Part shown: one piece after another, positions 54,274 to 64,000 of the stretch | Layout: every line of letters begins with the position of its first letter | Position numbering within the stretch: the stretch's first letter is position 1 | Source: Paramacrobiotus metropolitanus | Lineage: Eukaryota > Tardigrada > Eutardigrada > Parachela > Macrobiotidae | Direction of reading: 5' to 3' | NCBI RefSeq assembly: GCF_019649055.1 | Contig: NW_026570226.1 | Location: forward strand, 1,302,001 to 1,366,000 | DNA: 64,000 bases | Notes under the pieces: generated by a model | What the model saw: only the letters and a program-made list of their open reading frames with translations | What the model was told of the DNA's origin: nothing | Databases searched by the model: none | Program-made: the position numbers and the translations under genes

Positions 54274-54990
54274 TTTTCTTAAGCATGTGGTCTTGAGTAC
54301 TTAAAAAACGCTAAGCACAAGCGAGAAGAATCGAGCGCCAGATTTATTTCGGAGCAGCGTTTTGCGAATCCTTATCATTTCAGTTAGTAGGCGAATAACC
54401 TGTGCAACACTGAATACTTCGAGAGATGGTACTTGCTGGATGCTATCATGAGTTATGGAATACTGTAACCTGACAGCATCATGTCAAAGCATTTGAACTT
54501 TCAGTACCCGATAAGATAGACACTTGGTTATCTAATTTGGTAATGTTCACAAAAATAGAACAGGGTAAATTCCGAAGTTAAGGTCAACTCATATGCATAA
54601 AAAATCTATAGATCTCTGGTCGTAATTAAGCCACGTGTGCAGGTGTGCGGGACTATGATTCCGCTTTCCTGATCCAGTAAGTTTTTGGGAGCTCAAAACA
54701 CTGAAATATTAAACACCGTGGTATGTAATCAGCTTATTTGTAATCTACATCTGCATAAACTGCTCAGTAATAAACTTATGCATAATTTTTTGATTATAAA
54801 TGTGTCATCGTACTGCAGTGTTCTGTTCAGTCTTCGCTGGCATCCTCTCTGAAATGATGTATTGAGAAACATCAAAATCATCGCACAAAGTGTTCTTGGA
54901 AGCTTCAGAAACATGAATATGGTTGGCTGCAAGCAAAAAATTTTTCCACATGAATGGCTACACTACCAAAAAATTTCTGCAAAAATTGGT
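54274..54990. other. Spacer between the transporter array and the receptor cyclase
   Basis: About 700 bases with the promoter of transporter copy A and the 3' end of the receptor cyclase. No separate gene seen. Confidence 0.55.
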
Positions 54991-57900
54991 TTATCGAAAG
55001 TTGCATACGATGTAAAAATTTGAATATAACCGGAGCAAATGCAACTTTTTTGCTGTCTGCTGTTTTCGCCAACTGGATTCTGACAGTTGGCAAAAATGAT
55101 ACCTATTTACTATACCTTCGCAAACGTATAGTAAATATTCCGCAGTCGAAACGCTCAATCCTATCCTGAAAGCAAATTCAAAGCGTTTATTACATATACG
55201 CGACTCTGAAATTAAATTGAGTTTATAGTAAAAATCTGGGAAACGTGTCCCAGTCGTTACTTACAGAAAACAGCGGGGGATTGGTTCGCCGGTTACGTTT
55301 GCGACCAGCAGTAAGCATTTTCCTAGAGGTAAAAAAGACATGCAGATTTTTAACTAAGATGTTACTGATCAATACCACGTAAATCTTTAATAAATTAAAA
55401 TATAGATATGTACAAATTGACAGGTCAAAACGTACAATTGACATACAAAATAGCTGGCAGCCAATTTGTATGTCAGTTGTACGTTATGACATTAATATTT
55501 TGATTTGTAGATTTGAAGATTTTTACATTTGACAGATTTGAAACGGCTGATCGATGATCGCCCTACTCTGTGTACCTGTATCCATGCCACATTTAAAGGT
55601 CAGCTGATTTTTTACGGAGTTGTAAGAGGCACAGATTTGCCGTACAACATCCATAAGGTCAAATGCCACAGCTGCGCATGTTTTCACGTGAGCCCATTCA
55701 CTTTCAGGAGTGCGACGATCGTCTACAATCTACAGCCAAGATGCTTGTTACCTTTAACTTGAAGACATACGTATACGTAAACTGCCACTTCGATAGCTAC
55801 CGTACTAGATAGTTTAATATCTACAGATATTTGAATTGACTGCTTCGACGTTTATTCTTAAAAATATACTTATGTTTTACGGTACTTATGATTTTGTCGC
55901 TATCGTCAGTTCCAAGAGTTTGTGACTGTACTTTGTAGGCAGATTGTCCAATTAATTATGTAGTGCCGATATATTGTTATAAATTATTCCGTTACCTTCA
56001 AAGCGTCCGCTGCCGATGGGATACACATGCAATAGTACCCTCTTATTACTGCATCCCAGGAAAACATTAGTTCAGCAAGAGCATTTAGTACGTCATCAAT
56101 TTGTGCAGGCCCGTTCGTTTCGAGCCCGGTAATTTTCGCACATAAAACCGTTGCAAATGGAAAAAATTTGGGTTTAATTGTGAGGCCTTGGAGTAACGCC
56201 TGAGAAATACCGCTGCAAAAAGTCACCAGCATGAATAAGATATATCGTATAACGTATAATCCGTAACCCGGGTTAATTTTAACTGGAACGGTTGATTTCA
56301 ATTAAATAAATTCGCAGATATTTATTGCAACGGTTGTACTGGGATGCATAGTACAAGACTCATTAAAACTAACCTTGGCAGCATTTGTTTCAGAATGGAT
56401 TCTTGTCGTAATTTTTCCGTTTGTAAATTATCCGTTTTTTCTGCCAACTGCGATTCAAGTTCTGTGGAATACTGCTCCATCCGACTGATTATTAGATCGA
56501 TAATATTGTCGTTTTTGATACCACTGATTTTTCTGACAGTTTCCCGTACTCGAGTAGCCGATGGTCGGTCAATAGGTACTTCCGACCAACATTGTTCCAA
56601 AAGATCATACAGTTCCACCGAACAAGCGGAGCGCGTCACTGGCGGTCTTAAAAGGGGAGGCTGACCTTTAGCAACCTGCAGGTACATTAAAACTGCATTC
56701 TCCTGCCTATTATTGGATCCCGGCATTTCGCACAAAGTTGATATTATATGTATACAGATTAATTTTTACCTCTGTTAGTATTTCCTGCGCTCTGCTTATG
56801 CTGTATTCTTCCAAATCCTGTTCGCTAGCGATATAAGGGTCCGTGCGCAGAATGATCTGCTGGAGAACTATTGCGAAACTATATATGTCACCTGCAGAAG
56901 GATTGACCTTTTTCCTTTCCCCGTATTGTCAACAGCGGTAAGTGTAACAGAAGGTATTAAGCTGGATGCACATTTCTTGCGTACCTTTCTACACCACATA
57001 AAAAAATGAATCACAAACTTAATTAAGGAGAGCTTTTCTCAGTATAGACCTGTGTTCCGTTTTCAGGCATTTTAATTTTGAGCAGTTCAGGGGCTCTCCA
57101 CAGTAAACTTTGCACAACTTCGTCGTCGCAATTTTCATCCATCCACAGAAACGCTTCTCGTTCTTGAGGATTTTGCAGTTTTGCGAGACCGAATTCTGAC
57201 AGCTTTACCACAAACCGTCCGTCGATTAGAATTGTCTTTGATGTAAGGTAGCCATGAGATTGTACCGATGTTGAATGGAGATACCAAATTCCCTGCAGCG
57301 CCAGTAAAATCAAAGAAACATTAACCGTATTAATTATTCGTATTCGAAGTGGGTTTCAGTGTATCAGTGTGCACAGAATTTGCCTCACGTAACGTAATTC
57401 ATCAGGAAAAAAAATTACACATTCACACCTCGACAATATCTTTTATGAAGGAAAACCGGAAACTCCAATCCAACTTCATTTTTTTCTTATTCAAGATGTC
57501 CTGTAGACATCCTTTAGTACAGCATTCGCCGATTATATACAATATCCAGCCATTGTGAGTGGACTCTTCAATACATAACCCGATAAATCGTTGCAGATTT
57601 TGGTGGCGTAATAACCTCAACTGCAACAAAATAACTACGTATACGTAAGTAACCGAAAACGACGAGTACGGTACTTAATAGAATATATTTCATACTGCTT
57701 AATACGAAATATAATTTTATGTTTGCTTTCATCTGACTGAAATTATATTGCCTACCCGTTCCAAATCTTGCAACAGCGGCGCTGTCGGATGGTAGGTTCT
57801 GTCTGGAACAGGGTTTATGCTGACCATACTGCCATGGAGAAACGCCGTCTTCCACGTGGAAATTATGTACACTGTCTCTGATTGCTAAAATATTATTGCG

Positions 57901-60900
57901 TATTTAGTTAAAAAATATTGCGCAATTAGAATTTTTTCGAATTATTCATCTACAGCCTTGGTCATAAATTTTGTTACAGTGAATGGGGATGGACTTTTAC
58001 GCAACGGAAAACCATTGATTTTGGGTCAATCCTCGACAAACCTTAATGGAAGACACTTTGCTCTGCATACTCTTGGCTGAATGGCTTCTGGGACCAGAAG
58101 CGGTGGATGTAAACTCAAGGTCATTCACGAAATATCGCCACCAATATGGATCGCGGACGTAATTAAGGCGGCTACGGAAAATGTATTGAAAAGCTGCTTA
58201 TTCGCGTAGCGCAACAACAACAAGCATATGTTGGGAACATTAAGCGGAAATTGTACCGATAAAAGACGAATCCTGCAACGGTCCCACTTATTATTAACAA
58301 CAGTGGAATAATTATCGCCGCAGAAACCAACCCGGAGTAATTCATTTGCTCTGCAAATTACGAAAAAATGGTAATTGTACAACTCCTGGCCGACGGAGGC
58401 AACCTTTAATGTACGTACTTATCATACACTGTGCAATGTGCATGTGATACAATGAATTTACAATGTTCATGTAATATTGTACCATATGTAGATATTACAT
58501 ATTTGTAGATATGTAGATATGTAGATATTTACCGACCAGACGTTGAAGTCCCGTTTGTCGGGTTGTCTGCTCTTGATGTAATAATAATAATAATAATGAC
58601 GTCAAAACTACTCGTAGTATTACGTCAAAAAATAACATTATTTAATTATGGCCACGAAAACTTCTACCAATAATCATCAAATCGTTGTTTCAAAGTGCGC
58701 CACTTCATATGACCATCAGATAATTTGCACCGAGCGCGAAGCGCGAGGTGCTGCAATAAGTCTTCGTCAAGAGCATAAAATTTGTCTGACGCCACGAAGA
58801 GCGTACGTCACGCTTTTCCAATTCCACAATCCCAACACCATTTCCATTTACTGGCGCTCGCGCTCGTGCAATAATGTGGTTCGCAACCACCGCTAGTTAT
58901 AATGCTATACTTTGAAGTACACATTGTTTTTGCGCACAGACCTTCTTTGCATTCTGAGTTCAAAAATCCACACGGTGGGCTGTTGGGCGGAAGCTGGGTG
59001 CCGAAAGACCCATCCGGTTGTGGCCAGCTCAGAACACCCAACGAAGTAAATTCGTTATTCACGAAATCAAGTCGTAGAAACGGAGAAGCCTAAATTACAG
59101 CTATTATCACCTTAGAAATATCTATATGTTCTTATTTGAGGTACATGTATTTAGTATTTACACTTTCGTGCCCAATTGGCTGTGATCTAGTACTCTGTAC
59201 ATACGTACGGAAATGGCAGTTCCGGTCGATACATCTTGCGGAAAATGCTTAATTTCATACAGGACCATTCGATCTCCATTAGCCCCGATATCGATGTTGG
59301 CTTGCAGGTTGCTGGGAATTGTTATGTTTCGCATGGATTTTATCAATGAATTCAAATCCGTTATGTTCTGCGTAGCACCTCCGTTAATGAGTGTATTGAT
59401 AGCAGTTCCGTAGAGGGTGACGGCATCGTAATAAGCCATTACGACGGGGTCAACCTTAAAGCGGTTTATGTGCTAAATTTAATTTACTAAGAGAAAAATA
59501 CTTTTTGATTTATTCTTTACGCGTTCAAATGCTCCAAAAGTGTAGTTATATTTTTTCAAGGCCAGTTTCCTCAGCATTCGGGCAAATTCATCCATTTGCG
59601 GGCCATTTACTTCCGCCATGGAAGCAATAATTAGGGACTGGTAAGCAGTACGCGCCGACTGGAAAAGCGTATATCATCGATAACGCACATGTCAAGGTCG
59701 CGTCCATTTTGATACAGTTTAAGGCAGGTGTATAAACTGTTTGTGGTTCACATACCATATCGCCGAAATCGTTGAATTGCCAAGTGTATGTTCCCCATAT
59801 CCTACTTTTATACATTTCCACACCCATATATACCTGCAAAAACTATCACTGTAACCAAACTTTCGATCGAAACGTAGAAATAGAATTCTTATTAACAAGG
59901 ATTTCTTATTTAGTAAAATCCAGGAGATGCTGTCGTTGTAGATACAAAGCTATTGTCCCCACGCGTGGGGTAATCCGCAGGATTTATTATGTGGTATTCG
60001 ACAATCTTACATGTTGACCTTGCGTCATTCCCTTGTGATTCGCAATAATCTGTAACACCGCGTATCAGAGCCATGCAGAGACATGAATGCTTGAAAAATT
60101 ATACTATATTACTATAAGCCTCAAGCTAATTGTAAATATGCATGGAAAATCTTTAAGCAATCGTTGACAATACGGTACTAGCTAGTATATTTATGCATGC
60201 CGCACAAGTAATTTCCCAAGATTGTTGATACGTACCAAAAGATCCCGGATGATAGTCGAATTAGCAAAAATCATTATCACTGAAAATAAATAATTATTTT
60301 TTGTTGTTATGTTACGATGTTACACCTCTTCCTACCTCTAGAGACACGGTTTGCTTGTGACAGCAGTGAATCCAAATGTCGTCTGTATTCTGCCTGCGTA
60401 CGGAATTCCACAGTAAGATCCAGAAATGTGGTGTTCTTTCGTGTGATAAGCGGCTCGGCCTTATACTGAATACGGAAGCTCTCGCCCATCTCCGAGAAGA
60501 ACGGATCGGCAACGTCGACAATAACCGAATTGTGGGTGTAATTAAACAGATTCATAAATTTCAACAGACATTTTCCCAGGTCAACAAACGTGTACGTTGT
60601 GCGGATCATATTGGGGAAACCATTTCGTGGAACTCCAGATAAACCCGATACAAATGCACCAGGCGCTGCGATTAATGGGATTTTCAGGCTTTCTGCGGCT
60701 TGGTACATGTCCAAGACTGCATGCGTACATCCTTTGCCGGGAAAAATTATCCGGTTATTATGTAAAAAATTATGTAAAACTGACTAGCTAGTATTATTAA
60801 AGCAAAGATTTGGTATATTTATTAACAATTGTGAAATTACAAATTTACAGTACAGATACATCGCGTTTCCTACGTACTGTATGATGCAGAGGTGTATATC

Positions 60901-61286
60901 GTGTATGAGCAGTTCAGAAGAATAAACTCTGGGGGTCTGTCACGAATCTTACCTGGCCCGATGAATATGTTACAATAAACATTCTCGTGAGCCCATTCAA
61001 TAATGTGCGAAATTGCCAAATTCTTTGGTGAACAAGCTTTGCCACCATCTTTGTACAGCTTTCGCAGTTGGACTTCCGGTGGTAAAATTTCCTCATTTAC
61101 GACTTTCAAAGCCAAATCCATAGCTGCTCCAATGCGATTATAGTCCACTACTAGTCGGGGATTGCCGCGTTCCAGTATGGAACAAATATTGAGAAAGGTT
61201 GTCGTGTTAGGTTCACCGGGCATGGCGCCCTGACCCGTACAAGTTGCACCGATGACAAAAACCAGCACCCAGTTGATACGAATCAT
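54991..61286 (-). CDS. Receptor guanylate cyclase-like protein with a degenerate cyclase domain
   Basis: Exons: 61286-60953, 60731-60336, 60279-60236, 60049-60011, 59833-59756, 59658-59521, 59472-59164, 59089-58942, 58350-58257, 58171-58042, 57884-57756, 57620-57429, 57292-57034, 56891-56770, 56675-56374, 56212-55996, 55729-55576, 55322-55265, 55165-55116, 55079-54991; 1093 residues. In order: signal peptide (MIRINWVLVFVIGATC), ANF-receptor ligand-binding ectodomain, one membrane span (GLVSAAIIIPLLLIISG), kinase homology domain (SHGYLTSKTILIDGRF, EFG, RAPELL), coiled dimerisation helix (IISRMEQYSTELESQL), and a cyclase domain. Natriuretic-peptide-receptor-type cyclases make cGMP on ligand binding. 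Here every catalytic position is replaced (VLCAKITGLE for [15 protein letters not shown] for GDAYMV; VSTAEYL for VNTASRM), so it should be inactive. Three donors are weak (GTGTAA, GTCTGT, and a GC after 57034). The final exon's frame is uncertain. Confidence 0.82.
58501..58597. repeat. Short tandem repeats in a cyclase intron
   Basis: Three GTAGATAT units near 58505-58528 and an AAT trinucleotide run near 58579-58597, both in the intron before the membrane-span exon of the degenerate cyclase. Confidence 0.75.
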
Positions 61287-62304: not shown

Positions 62305-64000
62305 TCATTCCTCAACTGGAGGGTCTTTGCGTGATAGTAGCCAATAAGTTGTCATGAGACCTTTACCCTATAAAAGTAAAATTATGTATTCCGGAACTTC
62401 CATTGACATAATTAATACGGTGTCGTGCTGCTGCGCGACGCGCCTCTACCAGGTCAGAGACTCGGGTACGGAGTAGTCATACCTTTACGTTAACTTCACC
62501 GCGTGTCTCCAGCGTAAAGCCGGGAAACTTTCCTAGTATGTCTTTGGTTGCCTGCGTGGTTTGTATGCGCATTGCTAATAACAAAAAGAGATTAGAAACC
62601 ATTTTTTATTCGGCATAATCGCAGTCTAGGGATCTGAATATCCAGGACAGCGCTCATTTGTCAGCTGATTAAACTTGGTACTGACAATTTACTCGGTTAT
62701 TGCTTGGTTATTGTTGTTTATTGCTGTATATTGCCCGGATTGTTTCAGACCGTTTCTAGCATTACACCGAAGCCTTATAACTATGTTAAGGTATGGTAAC
62801 ATACGTTCTCCAGTTGATTCCATTCTGGAAGCTGTGTTTATGGAATCGCCAAACCTGAAAACCATGAAAACAAGATAGTTTGAAACGAAGTCTACGGTTT
62901 TAAAGTGTTTGTCATGATCATGAGTTGCTCGATCTGGGACTTACAAACAATATCGCGGAGCTTTTAAGCCGATAATTCCGGCAACGCATGATCCTGTGAA
63001 TTTAACTTCCTTTTAAATATAGTTCACAAACTAACTTACATCTGCACGGCATTAAATTTTTGCTAAACCCGGTAGTACTTATGCTGAAGACATTTATAAT
63101 TATAAATCAAGCAGTATAAAGCAAGCAAGCAAGCGTTTATAAAACAAGCAGTGAAGCACGGTGCTGCACTTGCTGGTACTGAGAGCACAATACAGACCGC
63201 TCATTTTGGACAGTTTCTTTATTTTGCGATTCAGACTGCAGCTGCTCGTACTCGGAGCAGCCTGGGCATTTAAATAGGTAAAGAAACAGGTAAAAATAAA
63301 TGAACTGAAACACATCCAACACACCACTACTCGACCGTGGACCTTGGCCACTTTACTAACCGGAGTGCATTCCGCTGCGTATCCTTATATGCTCAGACGG
63401 TTTTTGTGGTATCTTAAAGTCCGGTATTTTTGCTAATATTTCCCTGGCAATTGTTGCTACTTCTTTGGCGTGGTTAATGCCATTTCTTATCGGCAACCCA
63501 CTAGCCACCTGCAATATTAATTTTTGCCAAATCTACCAGATACAGATTATTCAAACCAGTCAGTCACTGGGGCCCGTAGCCCGCATGTGCTTTTTAAAAT
63601 ATTTTCTTAACTCTGAAATAAATGAAAGTCCCTAAAATACTGTTGTTACTCAAACTAGAACTGTAGTGAGTACTTTGCTCGCAGCGCGATTCATTTGACC
63701 TTAGTCCCCTTACCATGTACGCATCACCTTTAACAAAAGATGCAAAACGGGTAAATTTTCACTTGAATCAAATAAGGTGAAAGATAATCGTTTACCAATG
63801 GTTTCCACTTTATAAGCATCATATTTCTCAACAATTTCGTCAAATTGTGTATAAAGGTCATTCAGAAGCGAAATGACATCCATGGGGGTGCAGGAAGCCG
63901 CAATTGTAGTGAAGCCAACAATATCGCTAAAGTAGACTGTCACCGTTTCAAAAAACTCTGGAAGAACTGTTTCCCCTTTCATCAGACTTAACGCCACCGC
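62305..64000 (-). CDS. Receptor guanylate cyclase, catalytic domain (partial, runs off the right edge)
   Basis: Exons in the window: 64000-63796, 63727-63714, 63508-63361, 62993-62945, 62854-62805, 62574-62483, 62367-62305. They cover the class III cyclase domain to the stop; the ectodomain, membrane span and kinase homology domain must lie beyond 64000. Catalytic residues are intact: the first metal Asp in [11 protein letters not shown], the guanine-binding Glu and second metal Asp in KVETIG-DAYM, and the transition-state Asn/Arg in [10 protein letters not shown]. The C-terminus is the usual [11 protein letters not shown]. It converts GTP to cGMP at the membrane as a dimer. The DAYM residues come from a 14-base exon. 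Its first spliced blocks align directly with the degenerate neighbour, so the pair arose by tandem duplication. Confidence 0.9.

Follow-up and report, generated by a model that had tools for sequence, protein, structure and literature searches.

Receptor guanylate cyclases of the NPR-A type (PDB 9bcl, 9bcv) are built from a ligand-binding ectodomain, a kinase homology domain, a dimerisation helix and a cyclase domain, in this order. According to passages of two studies, the metal and nucleotide residues of class III cyclases are divided between two subunits (PMC3591389, PMC8815786), and for human soluble cyclase a passage assigns D486 and D530 to metal binding, E473 and C541 to the guanine and R552 to the phosphate (PMC3591389). 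Each active site would combine the metal half of one subunit with the base half of its partner. Here we analysed gene A from the tardigrade Paramacrobiotus metropolitanus, located on the minus strand of a 64,000 nucleotide stretch of contig NW_026570226.1 (G000:C6:1302001-1366000, the window in the following, with positions counted from its first letter). The gene has the same domain order as NPR-A, but four of the five catalytic positions are lost, these positions being the two metal aspartates (Asp1 and Asp2), the guanine Glu, an Asn, which we take to be the transition-state residue, and an Arg. A is probably a maintained, full-length and membrane-anchored pseudoenzyme receptor that is kept by selection and unable to make cyclic guanosine monophosphate (cGMP).

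NPR-C makes no cGMP and has only a short tail. In contrast, A keeps the kinase homology domain, the helix and a cyclase-like domain, and does not show the absence of domains seen in NPR-C, a ligand-binding relative of the receptor cyclases that is termed a clearance receptor in the excerpts covering it. For receptor cyclases of Caenorhabditis elegans, parts of two articles state that key residues are absent and that obligate heterodimers have been proposed, with experimental support for ODR-1/DAF-11 (PMC8045692, PMC5225109), while one of them describes formal proof of this heterodimer in native cells as awaited (PMC8045692). Compared by these partial descriptions, ODR-1 and DAF-11 are, like A, receptor cyclases for which the absence of key catalytic residues is proposed; they are, however, proposed to complement each other, whereas A is broken in both half-sites. 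For soluble guanylate cyclase alpha/beta and for adenylyl cyclase C1/C2, passages of one article describe a site that is split between subunits and a degenerate pseudo-site (PMC3591389). One complete site persists in these enzymes, while pairs with A should have none. Receptor cyclases with incomplete sites are already known and have been explained by partners that complete each other, and a full-length receptor that completes no site should differ from them.

By its architecture, A is a receptor guanylate cyclase with ligand-binding, kinase homology and cyclase homology domains. These three were recognised by Pfam, with 97.7 bits for PF01094 (ANF_receptor, cut-off 25.4), 98 bits for the kinase homology domain (PF07714, PK_Tyr_Ser-Thr, cut-off 23.1) and a weak score, but above the cut-off, for PF00211 (Guanylate_cyc, 38.6 bits versus 21.9), compared to 85.1, 99.2 and 207.3 bits for the same domains of the neighbouring paralogue C. 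The full receptor architecture claimed in the initial annotation is therefore confirmed by Pfam for three domains, while its further elements were recognised in other ways: a signal-peptide-like N terminus by inspection, a hydrophobic stretch (residues 485-505) between ectodomain and kinase homology domain by inspection and alignment with the paralogues, and the dimerisation helix by alignment. Helix and cyclase region of A (merged model, see below) align to NPR-A over 218 residues (E 2.4e-19). Gene models of A and its neighbours were derived from 102 kilobases (kb) with a spliced protein-to-DNA aligner written for this task, and the assembly searched comprised 169.8 megabases in 533 contigs. 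All splice sites of A are predictions, some of them set by hand in place of automatic choices of the aligner. The merged model extends from 61286 to 54805 and comprises 20 exons and 1083 residues, with 0 stops and 0 frameshifts; a split variant has 21 exons and an equally open frame. This agrees with the multi-exon open frame reported earlier, but the gene does not end at 54991 as assumed there, since a further homologous exon (54926-54805) closes in TGA.

Both models agree on three replacements, which were also seen in the NPR-A alignment of the merged model: Asp1 is Lys910 (56136-56134), the Asn is Ser1033 (55149-55147) and the Arg is Tyr1037 (55137-55135). The models differ in exon 16. The merged model has a single exon of 217 nucleotides (nt; 56212-55996, donor score 2.2), in which the guanine Glu is changed to Pro949 (56019-56017) and Asp2 is kept as Asp953 (56007-56005). 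In the split model an exon from 56212 to 56025 with the same Lys910 and a weak donor (score -1.8) is followed by a micro-exon of 26 nt (55796-55771), and here the Glu is kept and Asp2 is changed to Tyr. Alignment scores at intron costs of 8, 9 and 12 were 127.2, 121.2 and 103.2 for the split model and 123.7, 118.7 and 105.5 for the merged model, which was assembled by hand and whose value at cost 12 stems from a free run. The automatic aligner ended exon 16 at 56025 in four runs at cost 9 and in other alignments, and at 55996 in two runs at cost 6. The merged donor is stronger, yet B, C and D carry an intron nearby (206 + 14 nt). As the NPR-A alignment was built on the merged model it cannot discriminate between the two, and since the scores are near equal we make no choice. 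Four of the five catalytic positions are lost in A, and either Glu or Asp2 stays, depending on the splice model. The earlier claim that all five positions are replaced holds for Asp1 to Lys, for Asn and for Arg but not for both of the others, and the proposed change of the second metal Asp to Tyr applies to the split model only. Further changes affect the guanine Cys motif (PRYC to PRCF) and the Asp of the FGD motif (Leu1030). In total, A differs from NPR-A by the loss of Asp1, the guanine Cys, Asn and Arg plus either Glu or Asp2, and by a missing C-terminal strand. A first hand alignment, which placed Val and Glu opposite Asn and Arg, was dropped, as Ser and Tyr occupy these places when the exon is aligned without gaps.

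The losses affect both half-sites of A: Asp1 is missing in the metal half, and the base/transition-state half is without Asn and Arg. A pair of A and an intact partner would have a first site without the Asn and Arg of A and a second site without its Asp1. Since both half-sites are broken, A would be unable to complete either site, be it as a homodimer or together with any partner. A subunit that complements others should keep one complete half, and A keeps none in either splice model. A may bind its ligand as a silent homodimer, or it may pair with a co-expressed receptor cyclase and silence it; ligand binding and pairing are both suggested by conservation. The likeliest role of A would be that of a non-signalling receptor, as a decoy or as a silencing subunit; the dominant heterodimer partner suggested in the initial annotation is conjectural.

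Receptor guanylate cyclases are hugely expanded in this genome. A search with the exon of A that encodes kinase homology and helix yielded at least 150 matches including A (150 scored of 358 candidates). We surveyed the cyclase exons of the other 149 scored loci (L007-L155) in spliced profile alignments of their own, and took in more sequence for 44 Asp1-less loci that were unreadable or misaligned at Asn and Arg. Of the 146 loci readable at Asp1, 57 have another residue there (Glu in four of the 57), and after removal of near-copies at 95% identity the figure is 55 of 132. Among the 57 Asp1-less loci, Glu is kept in 55 and Asp2 in 50, and Asn and Arg are both kept in 54 of the 55 that are readable there. 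In the exception, L071 (with L163, C75:83172-84851), the five positions are occupied by Ser, Arg, Asp, Lys and Gln, so that both half-sites are replaced, and the frame is open in the alignment. In L152, Asp1 is changed to Ser and Glu to Arg while Asp2 is kept, with Asn and Arg being unreadable. Among loci with Asp1, Asn/Arg are replaced in three of 33 readable cases. These related loci (L010, L012 and L018) keep both metal Asp and have Gln/Lys or Ala/Lys for Asn/Arg, and hence show the opposite half-site loss; array member E, for which the survey stretch was too short, is a further case with loss of Asn alone. Asp2 is lost despite a retained Asp1 in 8 of 82 readable loci. Asn/Arg loss shows no significant association with the state of Asp1 (1/55 versus 3/33, Fisher p 0.15), and the retention of the second half-site therefore rests on the 54 of 55 loci that keep it, not on an association. 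A quick tree built from 126 rows requires 10 or more changes of the Asp1 label, and well-supported branches enforce 3 of these. Loss of one half-site is common and seems to have recurred, with the other half kept almost without exception, and A appears to stand apart by losses from both half-sites, alongside L071 and perhaps L152.

Some of the surveyed loci may be haplotype or decayed copies. Stops in the cyclase region are found in L078, L080 and L125; L078, in which Asp1 is replaced by Tyr, has a near-copy without stops, L077. Frameshifts were needed to align L009, L031, L051, L057, L083, L084, L112 and L125, which may also be explained by assembly error. L031 and L032 (C50:793547 and C50:1016798) are near-identical and lie in opposite orientation, and one of them needs a single-base frameshift at the metal Asp, due to either decay or assembly error. 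No description of a receptor-cyclase expansion in tardigrades was found in the titles and abstract starts of the papers listed, a coverage that leaves out most subscription journals, and no receptor-cyclase paper was among the matches listed for pseudoenzymes or catalytically inactive receptor cyclases.

Whether A is a pseudoenzyme or a gene in slow decay had been raised in the initial annotation, and the question is apt. In the case of decay, catalysis would have been lost first and the cyclase domain would have drifted, with no stop so far by chance. We consider this unlikely. The divergence of A is concentrated in the cyclase domain and mild in the helix, which is not the uniform relaxation expected of a pseudogene. 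In the ectodomain A is 36-39% identical to B-D, while E reaches 30-32%; the corresponding values for A and E are 48-50% and 46-49% in the kinase homology domain, 48% and 59% in the helix, and 23-24% and 57-58% in the cyclase domain. Ectodomain and kinase homology domain of A are thus as conserved as those of its neighbours, and of the columns invariant in B-E it retains 71 of the 101 that lie in the ectodomain and 73 of the 102 that belong to the kinase homology domain, compared to 15 of 26 for the helix and 34 of 104 for the cyclase domain. All six ectodomain Cys that are invariant in B-E are retained. Stops, frameshifts and intron loss, the marks of a pseudogene, are absent from its 20 exons and 1083 codons, whereas neutral drift over 197 cyclase codons gave a mean of 7.9 stops at 32% identity with 0 of 3000 simulated runs stop-free, and a stop-free fraction of 0.0003 at 40% identity. 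The hydrophobic pattern of the fold is also retained in the cyclase domain. Core columns were defined by hydrophobic residues in 95% or more of 131 family rows, and A has a hydrophobic residue in 34 of these 39 columns, while 19.9 were expected by permutation (0 of 20000 as high). Among the 26 columns with an invariance of 90% or more across the family, 11 are unchanged in A. This pattern would suit a fold under selection without catalysis. Two stop-bearing copies of the family, L080 and L125, have Asp1, Glu and Asp2 in place despite their stops. Several points weigh against maintenance and, in part, for decay. For decay, the donors of exons 9 and 13 and the acceptor of exon 14 are weak, the C-terminal exon with its strand is missing, the helix is somewhat diverged by the values given above, and copies with stops occur elsewhere in the family (L078, L080 and L125). 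As limits on the case for maintenance, splice choices at exons 7, 9, 10 and 16 were made by hand, the donor of exon 10 being partly driven by frame. The simulation starts from C, contains no indels and uses a value of 32% that we estimated for the identity between A and its ancestor, and the permutation value for the hydrophobic columns is too strong because the alignment rewards similarity. A recently dead gene after a long relaxation confined to the cyclase domain would look identical. The donors as a whole do not support the earlier claim that they are unusually weak: with a heuristic score, A has a mean of 2.16 over 19 donors and B-E have 3.05, 2.72, 1.43 and 2.01, and 4 donors of A score at or below 0 compared to 2, 4, 8 and 4 in B-E, a rough comparison because the models of B-E are automatic and probably wrong in places. 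The donors of A are weak in places but not clearly weaker than those of its neighbours.

A maintained pseudoenzyme receptor is therefore the reading we prefer over decay, but maintenance could also serve a catalytic or regulatory function. A might be an obligate heterodimer subunit of the ODR-1/DAF-11 type, in which partners exchange half-sites and the pair makes cGMP. Pairs of incomplete subunits have been proposed in C. elegans, as stated in part of one article (PMC8045692), many sisters of A look like half-subunits, and A itself keeps either Glu or Asp2. However, A has lost Asp1 plus Asn and Arg, and thereby both halves, in either model, a double loss that is shared by L071 alone out of the 55 loci without Asp1 whose Asn and Arg positions are readable, which makes a role of this kind quite improbable. 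Alternatively, the cyclase fold of A might be reused, for instance for allosteric control of a partner via a pseudo-symmetric pocket like the forskolin site of adenylyl cyclase. This would fit with a fold pattern that is kept while the active-site residues are free to change, and degenerate pseudo-sites are described, in passages of two articles, as regulating known heterodimers (PMC3591389, PMC8815786). Known heterodimers retain one complete site, whereas a pair containing A would have none, and we regard such reuse as improbable, too. Finally, real transcripts of A might use other, intact catalytic exons, a possibility also named in the initial annotation. The splice sites are predicted and one cyclase exon is truly ambiguous, but a canonical cyclase query over the 102 kb (E 0.1 or better) detected no intact catalytic exons inside A or downstream of it in the window. 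Since, in addition, most exon lengths and phases match the paralogues and Asp1, Asn and Arg are absent from both splice variants near 56.0 kb, a model error of this kind is very improbable.

The exons of A follow the pattern of the array in large part. Exon 1 (60953-61286) contains the start Met, the signal-peptide-like N terminus, whose hydrophobic character was judged by inspection only, and the first part of the ligand-binding domain. The ligand-binding domain continues in exon 2 (60336-60731), with 396 nt as in B, C and D. Exon 3 (60236-60279) has the 44 nt that are common to all five genes, and exons 4 (60011-60049, 39 nt), 5 (59756-59833, 78 nt) and 6 (59521-59658, 138 nt) are like those of E. 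For exon 7 (59209-59454), again ligand-binding domain, the donor was chosen by hand, while automatic runs took other donors. Exon 8 (58942-59089) encodes the membrane-proximal ectodomain with a conserved Cys pair, and exon 9 (58257-58350), with 94 nt like in D and one of the weak donors, the transmembrane span as judged by inspection. The juxtamembrane exon 10 (58042-58171) has alternative donors and its donor was chosen by frame: with the other splice pair of exons 10 and 11 the frame shifts after exon 10, and the donor at 58042 together with the acceptor at 57884 restores it. The kinase homology domain starts in exon 11 (57756-57884) and extends over exon 12 (57429-57620), exon 13 (57050-57292, weak donor) and the purine-rich exon 14 (56770-56907, weak acceptor) into exon 15 (56374-56675), which also carries the dimerisation helix and has 302 nt as in B-E. 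The five cyclase exons (217, 154, 58, 50 and 122 nt) have the same phases as in the paralogues. Exon 16 (55996-56212 in the merged model, 56025-56212 as the first half in the split model, followed by the micro-exon 55771-55796) is succeeded by exon 17 (55576-55729, 154 nt versus 148 in the paralogues) and exon 18 (55265-55322, 58 nt versus 49), which includes the changed guanine Cys position. Exon 19 (55116-55165) has 50 nt as in B-E and carries Ser1033 and Tyr1037. The last exon, exon 20 (54805-54926), shows homology to the paralogues (HIHVSEASKNTL) and then ends in TGA without the C-terminal KGKG..YWL segment, for which, beyond exon 20, no convincing counterpart of the last exon of the paralogues was found; runs at low intron cost add a doubtful piece of 21 nt. 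Extra micro-exons near 55.8-55.9 kb, likewise added by the aligner at low intron cost, were not used. The search for a second copy of the first cyclase exon of A returned only that exon itself.

Five receptor cyclases lie in tandem on one strand (A-E, about 54.8-98.4 kb in joined coordinates), with A as the 3'-most member. The 3' part of B lies within the window (62335-64000, minus strand). Asp, Glu, Asp, Asn and Arg are all in place in B, C and D (L007, L008 and L011), in agreement with the intact adjacent paralogue reported in the initial annotation, which corresponds to B. E has lost the transition-state Asn alone and reads DTVLIASRM there (about 91256-91207 in joined coordinates of G000:C6). 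In a tree of the 100-residue exon for kinase homology and helix, A branches close to B, C and D at weak support (35/62), without a settled sister. Downstream of A, the minus strand of the window contains short frames between 48008 and 54273. Of three frames tested, two are similar to UNC-93-like proteins (PF05978, E 0.0002 and 0.0015, with scores under the curated cut-off), and these frames possibly form a small tandem set.

While A would veto both sites of a pair, its Asp1-less sisters could still form one site with a complete partner. We tentatively suggest that the genome may run a combinatorial receptor-cyclase code, with intact receptors, receptors that keep only the base/transition-state half, a few with only the metal half and rare silencers like A that veto any partner, although we see this as a doubtful extension of our data at present. 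If true, pairing would set a receptor on, conditional or off. With about 150 loci, of which more than one third of the readable members are without Asp1, the family of A provides a natural test for silent subunits, and offers a system in which heterodimer rules could be deduced from sequences and then examined in cells.

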